A stretch of DNA of 17,911 nt from Gemmatimonadota bacterium. Lineage in GTDB: Bacteria > GCA-2686955. The notes below the pieces were generated by a model. It did no database searches, was not told where the DNA came from, and was given only the letters and a program-made list of their open reading frames with translations. The stretch covers positions 1 through 17,911 of the forward strand of contig NYZA01000086.1 of assembly GCA_002686955.1 (NCBI GenBank). The letters run 5' to 3'. The translations under genes and the position numbers were made by a program. Positions 12,153 through 17,797 of the stretch are shown here, in pieces (the stretch's first letter is position 1; each line of letters starts with the position of its first letter).

Positions 12153-12909
12153 GTTTCCACACCTCCGCGGCGATGGCCGCCAACATCGCCGCACCTCTTG
12201 AGCGGGGGGCGAAGTCGAAAACCGTTCGACCGTGGCTCTGCGCTTCGTCGACCTTCACATCGTAACGGAGGACCGAGCAAACCCGATCCCCGAATTGCCT
12301 CTCGAGTCGAGCAACGATTTCGTCCGCGAGGCGGGTGCGTCGATAAAGGGTGGGGACCACGGCCTCGATCTTCAGTCCCTCGTTGCCCATCTGATCGCGT
12401 ACACGTCCGACCGACTCGACGATCTCCGCGCAACCGTCCAGCGCCAGATAAGTACAGTTGACCGGCACGACCACCGACTCCACGGCCATCAATATGTTTA
12501 CGGTGTGAATTCCGAGCGAGGGCGGTGCATCGCAGATCACGACGTCATAGTCGGAGAGCTTGCGGATCGCCTTCAAGAGACGCACATATCGGTCCGACGC
12601 ATCGGAGACGATCAGGGGGAAGTCGACCAGCGTCTTGTTCGCGGGTGCAACATCGAGACCTTCGATCTCGGTTGGCAGGACCAGAGCGTCGATCGGCAGA
12701 TCGTCCCGCGTCAGCCAATCCAACACCGTATCTTCCAAGTCCGCGACGTCCAGACCCAGCGACTTGCCGACCTGCCCCTGCGGGTCCAGATCGACGAGGA
12801 GCACCTTCAGGCCCTGCTCGCGAGCCAGGTGAGCGCCGGTATGTACGGTCAGGGTGGTCTTGCAGCTGCCACCCTTCTCGTTCAAGAATCCGATGGTCTT
12901 GGCTTGCAT
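12142..12909 (-). CDS. ParA/Soj-family partition ATPase
   Basis: The protein has 255 residues from the ATG at 12907-12909. It has the deviant Walker A KGGSCKTT (12-19) with both signature lysines. A Walker A' follows in LLVDLDPQG (37-45), then Walker B VICDAPP (124-130). The layout is that of a short ParA without an N-terminal DNA-binding domain. Such ATPases dimerise with ATP, bind DNA nonspecifically and position plasmids, chromosomes or cargo such as carboxysomes. No parB or centromere-like repeat is nearby, so this looks like an orphan ParA. The frame stays open upstream to 13125, but the extra 72 residues are low-complexity and homologous proteins start at MQAKTIGFLNEKGG. Its stop overlaps the acyltransferase start, so the two are co-expressed. 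Confidence 0.92.
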   Translation of the reverse strand: MQAKTIGFLNEKGGSCKTTLTVHTGAHLAREQGLKVLLVDLDPQGQVGKSLGLDVADLEDTVLDWLTRDDLPIDALVLPTEIEGLDVAPANKTLVDFPLIVSDASDRYVRLLKAIRKLSDYDVVICDAPPSLGIHTVNILMAVESVVVPVNCTYLALDGCAEIVESVGRVRDQMGNEGLKIEAVVPTLYRRTRLADEIVARLERQFGDRVCSVLRYDVKVDEAQSHGRTVFDFAPRSRGAAMLAAIAAEVWKRVI

Positions 12910-12915
12910 CGGGGT

Positions 12916-12921
12916 AGGATA
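12916..12921 (-). promoter_or_regulatory. Possible -10 of a leaderless parA promoter
   Basis: TATCCT (12921-12916 on the minus strand) lies six bases before the ATG, the same spacing as for the LysR gene. The parA start has no Shine-Dalgarno, which fits a leaderless transcript. No good -35 is seen at 16-18 bases, so support is weak. Confidence 0.25.
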
Positions 12922-12996
12922 CCCGCAAGCGTCGCCCGCGGTTCGATCCGAGTCGGAAAGCCCGCCGGAACGGGCCGAAGCGCATCCGTCCCCGCG

Positions 12997-14439
12997 ATGA
13001 AGTCTCTTTTCGTTTCCCGTCCCCACCGCCTGTGTGTCGTTCTCTGGCTGGTGCTCTACGGTTGTGGACTGTCGGTTCCCGATCAGATCGCTTCCCCCGG
13101 CTTCCGTCGTTTCGCTGGCGGCCATGAGGGCGATACCACGTTGCGCGCGGGAGAGAGCGAGCAGCTAATGCGCGAACGGGGGGCGGGCGTGATCCGCCGG
13201 GTGTGGATTCGGGCGCGCTCGTGCGACCCCTCCTATCTCGAGAAGTTGGTGCTGGAGGCCCGCTGGGACGACGCCGTCAACCCGGCGATCTCGGCTCCGC
13301 TCTCCACGCTATTCGCGGCCGGCCGTGCCTACAGTCCGCCCCTAGCCACCGAATTCACGACTTGGGCAAGGGGGGGAATGTCGATCCGCCTGGCGATGCC
13401 CTTCTCGGTGAGCGGCGATCTGCGCCTGCGCAACGTGGGGTCGGAACCGATCGAAGACCTTGCCTGGGAGATTGACGTCGAAAGCGGGGTCGTCGTGGGC
13501 CGCGAAGTGGGAAAACTGCACGCTCGCCACATCCGATCGATCGAAGCAGGCGGCGCGCGTCTAGAGATCTCCGGACAGGGTCGATATGTAGGCACCATTC
13601 TGATTGCCCGGGAGCTCGATCTCACGGAGAGCCGGATCTCTCTCTCGATCGACGCCGATCCGGCCCGCTCCGTGACCTCGCTGAATCTGGCGACCTTTTT
13701 TGGCGGGAGCGGCTTCCGGGACAGCGCCTCCTGGACCTCGGCCAAAGCCGGAATCCGCCGGCTCTCCGAGTCTCTGGCCGTCGCGCACCGCTGGCACGCC
13801 GACGCTCCGATCCCCTTCGCGCGATCACTCCTTTTGGAGCTGTCGACCGAGCAGAGCTCCCGGCGCCCCTCCGAGCTTTCGGTGCTCGCCTTTTGGTATC
13901 AGCCGAATCCGGCGGGACAGTCCCCCGTGAGCTATGTATCCGCTGACCCGGCGATCTTCGCCCTCGAGGGGGTGATCGAAGCCGAGAGCCTGATCCCCCC
14001 GCTCTACTCCAGCGGTGATCGTTGTCTGGCCGACATAACAACCCTCATGGGCGAGGGCTGGAGCGGCAACCGCCAGCTGCTTTTCCAGGCGGACGCACGA
14101 GACGATTTCGTCGTGCTCGAGATTCCGGTCGCGGAGCCCGGCGTATACGATCTCCACCTCGCTTATACGAGTGGATCGGGCTACGGCTCCGCCCGCGCTA
14201 CGATCGACGGTTTCGAACAAGACCATGCCCTGCTCCAGGCGAAGCCAAGCCCTTCACCGACGCGCGCGCTGAGCGTGCTCGGGGGAGTACGGGTCGAAAA
14301 GGGCTCCCCCACGCTTCGGCTCAGGTTGACGGTCGAGGAACCAGGACCGCCCTTCCTCATCGGACTGGACCACGTGCGGCTGGAAGCGGTAGACCTTCTC
14401 AGGAGTTCTTTCACTGAACCGGCGCCGGAGGGCGCGTGA
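12997..14439 (+). CDS. Lipoprotein of DUF2961 (GH172-like) family
   Basis: The protein has 480 residues. A basic N-terminus and hydrophobic stretch end in the lipobox LYGC, with Cys23 as the lipidated residue. The body follows the DUF2961 plan. A first beta domain has GAGVIRRVWIRARS, an ARWDDAVNPAISAPLSTLF segment and RLAMPF. A second has HRWHADAPIPFARSLLLEL and an FWYQ motif near residue 298. The last 150 residues (EAESLIPPLY, then GVYDLHLAYTSGSGYG) look like a carbohydrate-binding-type beta sandwich. GH172 members cleave fructo- or arabinofuranosides. The acidic EDY-type motif I expect in active relatives is not visible, so activity is uncertain. The frame is open far upstream, but those codons only shadow parA. 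The ATG has no clear ribosome-binding site. It probably heads the envelope operon. Confidence 0.75.
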   Translation: MKSLFVSRPHRLCVVLWLVLYGCGLSVPDQIASPGFRRFAGGHEGDTTLRAGESEQLMRERGAGVIRRVWIRARSCDPSYLEKLVLEARWDDAVNPAISAPLSTLFAAGRAYSPPLATEFTTWARGGMSIRLAMPFSVSGDLRLRNVGSEPIEDLAWEIDVESGVVVGREVGKLHARHIRSIEAGGARLEISGQGRYVGTILIARELDLTESRISLSIDADPARSVTSLNLATFFGGSGFRDSASWTSAKAGIRRLSESLAVAHRWHADAPIPFARSLLLELSTEQSSRRPSELSVLAFWYQPNPAGQSPVSYVSADPAIFALEGVIEAESLIPPLYSSGDRCLADITTLMGEGWSGNRQLLFQADARDDFVVLEIPVAEPGVYDLHLAYTSGSGYGSARATIDGFEQDHALLQAKPSPSPTRALSVLGGVRVEKGSPTLRLRLTVEEPGPPFLIGLDHVRLEAVDLLRSSFTEPAPEGA

Positions 14440-14459
14440 AACGATACGGAGACCATTCG

Positions 14460-15449
14460 ATGATGAACTCGAGCATCGGCCGCTTCACCTTGGTGGCACT
14501 TCTGGCCGCTGGCTGCGGTGGCGAAAAGAGCGAAGAGGTGGTGGCACGGGTCAACGGAGCACCGCTCTTGAGAAACGACTACGACCAACGGCTGAGATCT
14601 CTGCTGATACAGAACCAGGCGGGCGGCGACCCATCCGAGGCCCCGGAGGCGCTGCGGCAGCAGGCCGGCAAGGTGGTTCTCGACGCGATGATCGCGCAAT
14701 CGCTGGCGCACAACGCGGCCCGCGATGCCGGCATGGAGGTTTCGGATGACGAGGTCGAGCTCGAGCTCTCTTTCTCGAGAGCCCGCCACGCAAGCCGCGG
14801 CGAGTTCGAAGAAGAGCTGGCGCGTCGCGGTCTCACCGAGGAGGACTTTCGCCGGAACCTCAGCCGCGAACTCTTGATTCAGAAATACGTCGAAACCGCG
14901 CTCGCCAGTGGAATCGAGGTCGCCGACGAAGAGGTCCAGGTCTACTACGACGCCAATCCGATCGAGTTCAAGCGCGCCGAGTCGTTGCAGCTCCGCCAAA
15001 TCGTCGTGGGCGTCCCGCGGAGGGCGACGGCCGAAGAGCGAGCGGAAGCGCGTGCCGCCGTCGAACGTGCCCGCGAACGCGTGCGAACCGGTCAGGACTT
15101 CGGAGAGGTCGCGCGGGCCTTGTCGACCGACGCGAGCGCCGCCATCGATGGCAAGATCGGTGACGTGACGCTCGAGGAGCTCGTGCCCCCCCTGAGGGAC
15201 GCGGTCGAGGAGCTGCCGATCGGCGAGCTCTCTTCGGTCGTGGAGAGCCGTTTCGGCTACCACATGCTCCTCGTCGATGCCCGCCAGCCGGCGAAAGAGC
15301 TCTCGTTCGTCGACGCCGAAGAGATGATTCGCCAGCAGATCGTGGACCAGAGGAAGATGGCTCGGCGAGATCAGTGGATGAGGGGCCTCCGTGCCGAGGC
15401 CCGGGTCGAAGTCCTTTCGGTCGATCTGGTCGGGGGCGGAACCGGGTGA
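14460..15449 (+). CDS. SurA/PrsA-like peptidyl-prolyl isomerase lipoprotein
   Basis: The protein has 329 residues. A short signal segment ends in LLAAGCGG (Cys19), a lipobox. A SurA-type N-terminal chaperone helix domain begins VVARVNGAPLLRNDYDQRL. A parvulin (PPIC) domain covers about residues 175-278, with LRQIVVGVPRRAT, GQDFGEVARALSTDASA, GDVTLEELVPPL and ESRFGYHMLLVDAR. It should help fold exported proteins at the membrane. GGAG (14448-14451) lies 8 bases before the ATG at 14460. A GTG at 14436 overlapping the previous stop would add eight residues and is less likely; an ATG at 14463 is also possible. It sits between a lipoprotein gene and a protease gene with overlapping ends, so the three are one operon. 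Confidence 0.9.
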   Translation: MMNSSIGRFTLVALLAAGCGGEKSEEVVARVNGAPLLRNDYDQRLRSLLIQNQAGGDPSEAPEALRQQAGKVVLDAMIAQSLAHNAARDAGMEVSDDEVELELSFSRARHASRGEFEEELARRGLTEEDFRRNLSRELLIQKYVETALASGIEVADEEVQVYYDANPIEFKRAESLQLRQIVVGVPRRATAEERAEARAAVERARERVRTGQDFGEVARALSTDASAAIDGKIGDVTLEELVPPLRDAVEELPIGELSSVVESRFGYHMLLVDARQPAKELSFVDAEEMIRQQIVDQRKMARRDQWMRGLRAEARVEVLSVDLVGGGTG

Positions 15450-17797
15450 CCGCGGGCGCCCTGCTCGCCCTGGCGCTGCTGGGCGCGCCGGGCTTGGCGA
15501 ACGTGCCTTGGATCGAGCACGACCGAATCGCGGCGGTCGCTGTCGATGACGACGCCGCCGCGGTCGGAGTGAATCCGGCCGCGCTGGCCGCCGGCCGAGG
15601 GTTGAGCCTCGAGGGTTCGTTCGGTTTCGGCGCCTATTCCGGTGAGATCTCCCTGCGCGCCAACGCCGGTTTACTCGGAGGCCTCTCCTTCTTCCAAAGA
15701 GAAGATGGGCGGGGGCGCGGCTACGCTTGGAGTCGCGGCTTCGGTTCGCCCGGCGGGCTCGCCTGGGGACTGACCTATCGATGGGGTGAGGGCACCGATC
15801 CTGGGCAAACGACGCCGGGTCTCGACCTGGGATTCCTGCTGCGTCCCGGCGCCCGTCTATCTCTCGGCGCGACCCTATGGTCCCCCCTTGACGGTCTCCC
15901 CGGTGCGCGCGCCGGTCTGGCCCTTCGTCCCCTCGGCAGCGAGCGATTCGAGCTCTTCTCCGACCTCGTCTGGCGGCGAAGCGACGACGACCTGACGCAT
16001 GCCCTGGGAGCATCGGCCGAACCGATCATCGGCGTCGAGCTCAGAGGTGCATGGGAGAATGACGATGCCAGAGTGCAGCTTCGTCTCCGCGGAACGCATC
16101 TGGCACTCGCACTCATGGCGGATCGCCCGGAAGCGGGCGAATCGAGCCGCCCACGAGACGGAAGCGTACTCTGGAGGCTCGATTCCCGCCGATCTCCACG
16201 GCTGTTTGGGCGTTCCGGATCGCAGGTCGCCGAGATCGGCATCAGGGGGACGATTCGGGAGGAGCGCCCCGAACGGATCTGGATCCCCGATTCCGATCAA
16301 AGCTCGCTCCACGATCTGAGCCAGGCGCTCGACGCTGCCCTCGTCGACCCGGAGATCTGTGCCATCTACCTCGATGTCGGAGCGTTTCAGATGGGGTTGG
16401 GCGCCATTCAGGAGCTGCGTGCTCGGCTCGCCGACGCCTCCTCTCTGGAGGGAAAGCCGATCGTGGCCGGACTCCGTGTCCCGACCCGGTCCGGCTACTA
16501 CTTGAGCAGCGTGGCCGACCTCCTGATTCTGCCCCCGGCTTCGACATTGGAGCTGCCAGGAGCCGCCGCGGAGGTGCTCTTCTTCGGCGGTGCCTTCGAG
16601 CAGTTCGGCATCGAGGCGGATTTCGAGCGGATCGGTCCGTACAAATCGGCCGTCGAGAGCTACACACGGCAGGGAATGTCGGACCCCTTTCGCGAGCAGC
16701 TCGAGAGCCTCCTCGAAGATATCGACGGCAAGATGCTCGACGATATTGCATCTTCGCGGGGGATGAGTGCCGACGAGCTCGAGATGGCGATAGACGAGGG
16801 TTTCATCCCCGCGCCGGTCGCGCTCGAGCGAAAGCTGGTCGATCGACTCGGGGACCGCGAAGTGGCGATCGGAGCGGCCCGTCGCCTCGCGGGGCGCGAT
16901 TCGAACGACACCGAGACCGTCGATCCGGCCACCCGTCGGTACGCCCACCGCGCTTGGTCCACCCCCGATCCGGTCGTCGCCGTTCTGATCGCCGCCGGCA
17001 ACATGGTTCAAGGGGAGAGTCGCGACGAGCTGATTTCGGGCACTCGCCTGCTCGGGTCGCACACCATCGTCGACGCATTGGCCGAAGCCAGGGGCGATCC
17101 ATCCGTCGCGGCCGTCGTGCTCCGAGTCGACAGCCCCGGAGGATCCGCCCTGGCCGCCGGCGAGATCGCCCGCGAGGTCGATCGCCTCCAGGCCTCCGGC
17201 AAGCCGGTGGTCGTATCAGTGGCGAGTGTCGCGGCGAGCGGCGGCTACTACATCAGCGCCCGTGCCGATCGGATCGTCGCGAACCCATCGTGCGTCATCG
17301 GATCGATCGGCGTCTACTCCGGCAAGTTCGTCCTCCGGGGGCTCTACGAGAAGCTGGGCCTGCGCAAGGAGAGGGTCGACATGGGGCGCAACGCCTCTTT
17401 CTACTCCGATTTCAGCCCCTTCACCGATGCTCAGCGCAGCCTCTTGCGCGACTCGAACGAGCGATTCTACGAACGATTCGTGAACCGCGTCGCCGAGGGA
17501 AGAGAGCTCTCCTACGAGGAGGTCGACGCCGCCGGTCAGGGGCGGATCTTCAGCGCGGAAACCTCCCTGGATCTCGGCCTCGTCGACTGCATCGGCGGGC
17601 TCGATGACGCACTGGATCAGGCTGCGGGACTGGCCGGGATCGCCGGCTTCTATCGCATCGAGTTCCTTCCGGAGAAGCGAGGTCTCGTGGAACTGGTCCG
17701 CGAAGCGGGAGCCTCGACCCGACTGCCCGATCTGAGCTACTGGAGCAACGTCGAGAACTTTCGCCTTCTCAGCCCGATCGCTCTGGAGATGCGGTGA
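15446..17797 (+). CDS. sppA: SppA-like S49 peptidase with N-terminal barrel-like domain
   Basis: The protein has 783 residues from a GTG that overlaps the preceding stop (GTGA). A Sec-type signal (LLALALLGAPGLA) is followed by about 230 residues of alternating beta character that start DDDAAAVGVNPAALAAGRGL. That resembles the N-terminus of outer-membrane barrel proteins (FadL/PorV-like NPA motif). From about residue 268 the protein follows long-form SppA: two tandem S49 domains with Lys400 (GPYKSAVESYTRQGMSDPF) and Ser598 (VAASGGYYISARADRIVANP). The Lys-Ser spacing (198) matches E. coli SppA (Lys209/Ser409). DSPGGSALAAGEI supports the oligomeric S49 fold. SppA degrades cleaved signal peptides and other membrane-associated peptides. 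The alternative ATG at 15374 lies inside the isomerase gene and gives no signal peptide, so it was rejected. Confidence 0.9.
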   Translation: MTAGALLALALLGAPGLANVPWIEHDRIAAVAVDDDAAAVGVNPAALAAGRGLSLEGSFGFGAYSGEISLRANAGLLGGLSFFQREDGRGRGYAWSRGFGSPGGLAWGLTYRWGEGTDPGQTTPGLDLGFLLRPGARLSLGATLWSPLDGLPGARAGLALRPLGSERFELFSDLVWRRSDDDLTHALGASAEPIIGVELRGAWENDDARVQLRLRGTHLALALMADRPEAGESSRPRDGSVLWRLDSRRSPRLFGRSGSQVAEIGIRGTIREERPERIWIPDSDQSSLHDLSQALDAALVDPEICAIYLDVGAFQMGLGAIQELRARLADASSLEGKPIVAGLRVPTRSGYYLSSVADLLILPPASTLELPGAAAEVLFFGGAFEQFGIEADFERIGPYKSAVESYTRQGMSDPFREQLESLLEDIDGKMLDDIASSRGMSADELEMAIDEGFIPAPVALERKLVDRLGDREVAIGAARRLAGRDSNDTETVDPATRRYAHRAWSTPDPVVAVLIAAGNMVQGESRDELISGTRLLGSHTIVDALAEARGDPSVAAVVLRVDSPGGSALAAGEIAREVDRLQASGKPVVVSVASVAASGGYYISARADRIVANPSCVIGSIGVYSGKFVLRGLYEKLGLRKERVDMGRNASFYSDFSPFTDAQRSLLRDSNERFYERFVNRVAEGRELSYEEVDAAGQGRIFSAETSLDLGLVDCIGGLDDALDQAAGLAGIAGFYRIEFLPEKRGLVELVREAGASTRLPDLSYWSNVENFRLLSPIALEMR

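Follow-up and report, generated by a model that had tools for sequence, protein, structure and literature searches.

A widespread S49/SppA-type protease fused to a predicted FadL/PorV-type outer-membrane barrel

Introduction

SppA (protease IV, the 67K member of family S49), whose Escherichia coli structures are 3bez and 3bf0, consists of a tandem pair of S49 domains with a Lys/Ser catalytic dyad, and has so far been studied as an inner-membrane enzyme. The original idea for its function was the digestion of signal peptides. In E. coli and Bacillus subtilis, site-2 proteases have been proposed as the main signal-peptide peptidases, RasP being the main one in B. subtilis, where SppA has a clearer role in the resistance to antimicrobial peptides, including lantibiotics (PMC7568657). 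Flavobacterium columnare has a single SppA of 589 amino acids, which starts with an N-terminal transmembrane helix (PMC13236525).

Two further groups of proteins are relevant to the locus described here, and both belong to the outer membrane. The OmpA-type layout consists of an N-terminal barrel followed by a C-terminal periplasmic domain and, in OmpA itself, the barrel has 8 strands and the periplasmic domain binds peptidoglycan. PorV/PorQ, FadL and BamG are, instead, 14-stranded, and PorV/PorQ proteins hold an NPA motif in their N-terminal plug. The 14-stranded BamG belongs to the FadL family and is part of the BAM complex of Flavobacterium johnsoniae (PMC12611786).

Here, we describe a gene found in a 17,911-nucleotide stretch of Gemmatimonadota DNA (the whole of which is called the window below) whose product combines traits of all these systems. 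It has the tandem S49 pair and the dyad of SppA but, whereas the E. coli-type enzyme begins with one inner-membrane helix, it begins with a signal followed by a barrel of 14 predicted strands. The predicted strand number and the NPA motif are those of PorV/PorQ; however, PorV, FadL and BamG are stand-alone barrels, while that of the window protein bears a C-terminal protease and is compact, with about 190 residues of strands. The OmpA-type layout is likewise shared, with a protease and a predicted 14 strands in place of the peptidoglycan-binding domain and the 8 strands of OmpA. In the open-licence literature we found no paper in which SppA is linked to an outer-membrane barrel, to PorV or to FadL.

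Organization of the Fusion Gene

The fusion gene and the gene preceding it comprise the following features.

14436..15449, forward strand: SurA/PpiC-like peptidyl-prolyl isomerase gene, directly upstream (Pfam SurA_N_3 and Rotamase)
15446-17797, forward strand: gene of the barrel-SppA fusion, 783 residues, ORF confirmed
15446..15499, forward strand: Sec-type N-terminal signal MTAGALLALALLGAPGLA, followed by NVPW (by eye from the sequence)
15521..15592, forward strand: N-terminal plug/hatch-like helices, residues 26-49 (short helices, low-confidence model)
15572-15580, forward strand: NPA motif, residues 43-45, within the plug/hatch-like helices
15611..16183, forward strand: predicted 14-stranded outer-membrane beta-barrel, residues 56-246 (models, homology, hydropathy)
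16223..16945, forward strand: first S49 domain, residues 260-500 (Pfam, NCBIfam and PDB matches; VIA-align)
16643-16645, forward strand: catalytic Lys400 (IGPYKSA), aligned with E. coli SppA
16967..17674, forward strand: second S49 domain, residues 508-743 (best Pfam stretch 582-731)
17237-17239, forward strand: nucleophile Ser598 (VAASGGYY), aligned with E. coli SppA

The signal of the window protein was assessed by eye, and a signal-like hydrophobic stretch precedes the domain in most of the named relatives too. The GTG at 15446 is given here as a provisional start codon: the signal read from it lacks a positive n-region, and an in-frame GTG upstream, at 15374, is also possible and would give 24 extra Arg-rich residues.

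According to the coordinates, the stop codon of the isomerase gene overlaps the GTG start of the fusion gene by 4 bases (GTGA), and the two genes are possibly translationally coupled. The stop codon of a DUF2961 gene is likewise overlapped by 4 bases (GTGA) by the isomerase gene (window positions 12232-15449); since each gene overlaps the next by 4 bases, the arrangement suggests that the DUF2961, isomerase and barrel-SppA genes form one translationally coupled three-gene run. The relatives examined lack this three-gene unit, and none of the other loci inspected has an isomerase homologue beside its fusion gene. Furthermore, no conserved neighbour that could point to a function was found among 65 named loci.

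A Full-Length SppA-Type Protease

The protease part is readily recognized by family models. PF01343 matches the window protein in two stretches with 204.7 bits (cut-off 24.9), and TIGR00706 matches the second S49 domain with 207 bits, over its cut-off of 155. TIGR00705 (SppA 67K) covers residues 285-752 with 290.1 bits, under the equivalog cut-off of 311.45; the protein shares the domain layout of the 67K SppA but is slightly outside the equivalog limit of this model. In a search of PDB sequences, E. coli SppA (3bez) matches residues 285-743 with an E value of 5e-52, and the fold of the modelled monomer agrees with 3bez and 3bf0, the superposition of residues 259-743 on 3bf0 giving a Z of 36.7 with 29% identity (VIA-align). 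The initial annotation, made from the sequence of the window, had assigned the catalytic roles to Lys400 and Ser598 with the spacing of the E. coli enzyme, and the alignments agree: 198 residues separate the two in the window protein and 200 in the E. coli chain (3bez alignment), and the positions are K and S, respectively, in 59 of 59 aligned homologues. Judged by its domains and dyad, the window protein is a full-length, 67K-type S49/SppA protease. The C-terminal motif LLPY.IEI was considered as a special trait of the barrel form and rejected, as short SppAs have it as well.

The genome of the window, which is 84.5% complete, has another S49 gene on contig 54 (L001), coding for a SppA of 605 amino acids that starts with the hydrophobic N-terminal anchor MKKWIVVLILFGVFFMAAMLGVVLW. 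The window protein has no transmembrane anchor directly before its first S49 domain and has a 230-residue beta domain instead, so two SppAs with different predicted anchors coexist in this genome. In our own reading of a whole-protein search, at least one further S49 gene is present in 11 of the 12 genomes that bear the fusion among the first 61.

The N-Terminal Domain

The approximately 230 residues between the signal and the S49 part are matched by no Pfam or NCBIfam model. When the N-terminal domain was searched alone against Pfam, NCBIfam and PDB sequences, no significant match was found, these searches giving a single weak match to TraF_2 (E 0.01). Its relationships emerged from profiles. 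The profile A1, an alignment of 12 N-terminal domains, also matches stand-alone proteins of about 300 amino acids, which the NCBIfam models assign to the PorV/PorQ family or to its vicinity. PorV-family proteins were gathered with NCBI's own model for an independent profile-profile comparison with A1, which gave a probability of 97.3% (E 2.1e-11) with an alignment that starts at the NPA and extends over the strands; the control, consisting of the reversed profile only, gave 3.6%. The NPA of the domain, likened to that of FadL/PorV barrels from the sequence, aligns with the NPA of PorV-family barrels, and N43 and P44 are invariant in 59 sequences. The NCBIfam model of PorV/PorQ, NF033709, finds no match in the N-terminal domains of 12 members, and the domain is best described as a remote PorV/PorQ homologue which, by that model, is not a member of NF033709.

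Structural models point in the same direction. The AlphaFold2 model of a Zixibacteria homologue, obtained with 53 rows, has a pLDDT of 88.3 and a pTM of 0.85, and its residues 67 to 274 contain 14 strands. Residues 31-276 of this model superpose on FadL (3dwo) with Z 24.2 and rmsd 3.1 over 237 aligned residues, on chain F of the type 9 secretion structures 8gl6/6h3i, which we take to be PorV, with Z 23.2, and on 9n2d_B from the F. johnsoniae BAM complex with Z 21.5. The AlphaFold2 model of the window protein also has 14 strands, with a mean pLDDT of 75; most strands lie at 71-82 and the first ones at about 50 (blocks of about 49-82). The hydropathy of these strands alternates with a value of 3.19, against 1.58 +/- 0.30 in shuffles, and this value was reached in 0 of 5000 of them. 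When the complete model of the window protein was used for a structural search, the rows listed were of the S49/ClpP fold only, one domain having filled the list and, because the protein's own structural searches listed these chains only, we infer the closure of its barrel from the homologues.

Structure prediction of the N-terminal region, which the initial annotation had put forward as a check of its barrel-like domain, gives a barrel of FadL/PorV type that has 14 strands and a plug at its N-terminus, predicted with confidence in the homologue and with moderate confidence in the window protein, whose model also has 14 strands. The proposal of a barrel domain is supported by the homology to PorV/PorQ and by the homologue model, while for the barrel of the window protein itself the prediction is less certain, with a pLDDT of about 71-82 in most strands.

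Distribution and Relationships of the Fusion

It had also been suggested that the same fusion be sought in other genomes, where it recurs across many phyla. In the whole-protein search of 60 sampled genomes, matches over almost the full length came from several families unrelated to each other, and the A1 profile was found in frames of at least 721 amino acids in 49 of about 290 sampled genomes, according to our own tally from the search table. The S49 part is present in all of the 39 long frames with the barrel domain that were fetched from diverse genomes. A pattern scan of named genomes revealed 223 relatives, the best 80 of which were kept; among these best 80 of 223, 71 have a frame holding the search motif and 65 are complete by our own criteria, the complete loci scoring 1e-36 or better with the barrel profile. 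The relatives, of which the best 80 of 223 were kept, belong to Gemmatimonadota, Ignavibacteria and further lineages akin to Bacteroidota, KSB1, Zixibacteria, Calditrichota, Latescibacterota, WOR-3, Eisenbacteria, Fermentibacteria and Kapaibacteria. As far as these frames indicate, the barrel-S49 fusion is a widespread architecture and is not peculiar to the genome of the window, whose protein is far from the other 58 rows of the alignment (25-31% identity). A chance event or an assembly artefact was considered and rejected: the fusion occurs in dozens of genomes, and its presence in closed assemblies, including CP070758, CP070702 and CP070766, rules out stitching.

A tree built from the S49 parts mostly keeps the fusions apart from the short forms, and the nearest row to the window protein is the fusion from genome G282, with 97% support. 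The window's lineage is distant from all the sampled genomes except one, and the fusion of this only same-family genome (G001, L035) falls in a different clade. Since the window protein is nearest to G282 while the G001 fusion sits elsewhere, old paralogues or a transfer of the fusion gene within the window's lineage are likely. In this quick tree, in which three state changes are required, the fusions are mostly together and the deep forks are poorly supported; a single origin of the fusion may still be compatible with these forks.

Other PorV-type barrels are encoded in the genome of the window (G000), in which ten PorV_fam matches were found. One frame (G000:C108:26749-27897, reverse strand; loci L111 and L231) joins a PorV/PorQ-type barrel to a ComEA-type helix-hairpin-helix DNA-binding domain, scoring 6e-18 with TIGR01259 and 2e-11 with PorV_fam; matches spanning the barrel and ComEA parts also occur in G001, G130, G137, G073 and G104, and such a protein could serve in DNA uptake, as a receptor anchored in the outer membrane. 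In other genomes, PorV-family domains also lie in frames of 836-994 amino acids (G010:C22:48652, G026:C87:31038, G046:C136:29362 and G004:C34:23324), in which the barrel may again be joined to a different domain. The same genome encodes a homologue of SprA, the translocon of the type 9 secretion system (G000:C17:38438-42898, reverse strand; 522.7 bits over the frame).

Proposed Mechanism and Alternatives

In our proposal, the protein would be exported by the Sec pathway, and its N-terminal domain would then fold into a 14-stranded FadL/PorV-type barrel with the NPA plug inside. In FadL-type barrels the strand number is even, and the chain exits on the periplasmic side. The even strand count would put the C-terminus in the periplasm, as in OmpA-like proteins, and for this reason the S49 domains, which begin about 14 residues past the last strand in the window model, would be suspended on the periplasmic side of the outer membrane and would form a tetrameric bowl like that of E. 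coli SppA, with the Ser/Lys sites inside. This arrangement is expected because the fold of the protease part agrees with that of SppA from end to end (Z 36.7). The bowl would cut short hydrophobic or unfolded peptides near the outer membrane, acting beside the separate SppA with an inner-membrane anchor. Candidate substrates would be leftover signal peptides, fragments from the assembly or secretion of outer-membrane proteins, and incoming antimicrobial peptides, the first of these with the reservation that site-2 proteases have been proposed as the main peptidases for signal peptides in E. coli and B. subtilis. Anchoring to the outer membrane by the barrel is well supported by the homology and the models, and the Omp85 proteins encoded in the genome speak for it too; we infer the insertion, the periplasmic orientation, the oligomer, the activity and the substrate. 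On this basis, the window protein is probably an outer-membrane-tethered periplasmic SppA/S49 peptidase working alongside a separate inner-membrane-anchored SppA.

A more specific role in outer-membrane quality control, in which the protease would sit near the BAM complex or the type 9 translocon and clear failed outer-membrane proteins or released terminal signals, is possible, if on the unlikely side. It would fit the presence of the FadL-like subunit BamG in the BAM complex of Bacteroidota, the overlap of the fusion gene with the gene of a SurA/PpiC-like isomerase, and the type 9 SprA and six Omp85 matches in the window's genome; however, the isomerase is absent from the other loci inspected, no neighbour is conserved among the 65 named loci, and type 9 secretion was looked for in a minority of the genomes with the fusion.

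That the barrel serves instead as a conduit, through whose pore or lateral opening hydrophobic peptides would enter and be digested by the protease, either as nutrients or to defend the cell from antimicrobial peptides, seems to us unlikely. FadL is the best structural match (Z 24), hydrophobic substrates use a lateral opening in FadL proteins (PMC12611786) and the SppA of B. subtilis influences the resistance to lantibiotics and other antimicrobial peptides (PMC7568657), but in relatives of the FadL family such as BamG the fold has become a structural subunit (PMC12611786), and the 65 named loci share no neighbour that would suggest uptake.

Finally, a soluble and merely barrel-like beta domain, which would make the protein a free periplasmic SppA, agrees with the low confidence of the first strands in the window model and with the lack of significant Pfam, NCBIfam or PDB sequence matches for the domain alone, but is very improbable in view of the confident 14-stranded homologue model matching FadL and PorV, the profile-level homology to PorV-family proteins and the alternating hydropathy of the window strands.

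Concluding Remarks

The outer-membrane-tethered peptidase proposed here is a variant of SppA and not a separate new system. It would explain why these SppAs have a long N-terminal extension, for which there is no family model. It also suggests that PorV-type barrels act more generally as anchors for periplasmic domains. A bolder idea, which we consider rather doubtful, is that these proteins form a widespread, undescribed class of outer-membrane SppAs in which the barrel serves the S49 protease as an anchor and also supplies it with hydrophobic peptides; if true, many bacteria of the FCB group and of other phyla would own a peptide-degrading station at the outer membrane besides their inner-membrane SppA. 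Because many phyla conserve the barrel form, often in genomes that also have a canonical SppA, S49 proteolysis is probably placed also at the outer membrane in these bacteria, and this calls for a second role of SppA, be it in outer-membrane quality control, in the clearance of secretion by-products or in the defence against peptides.
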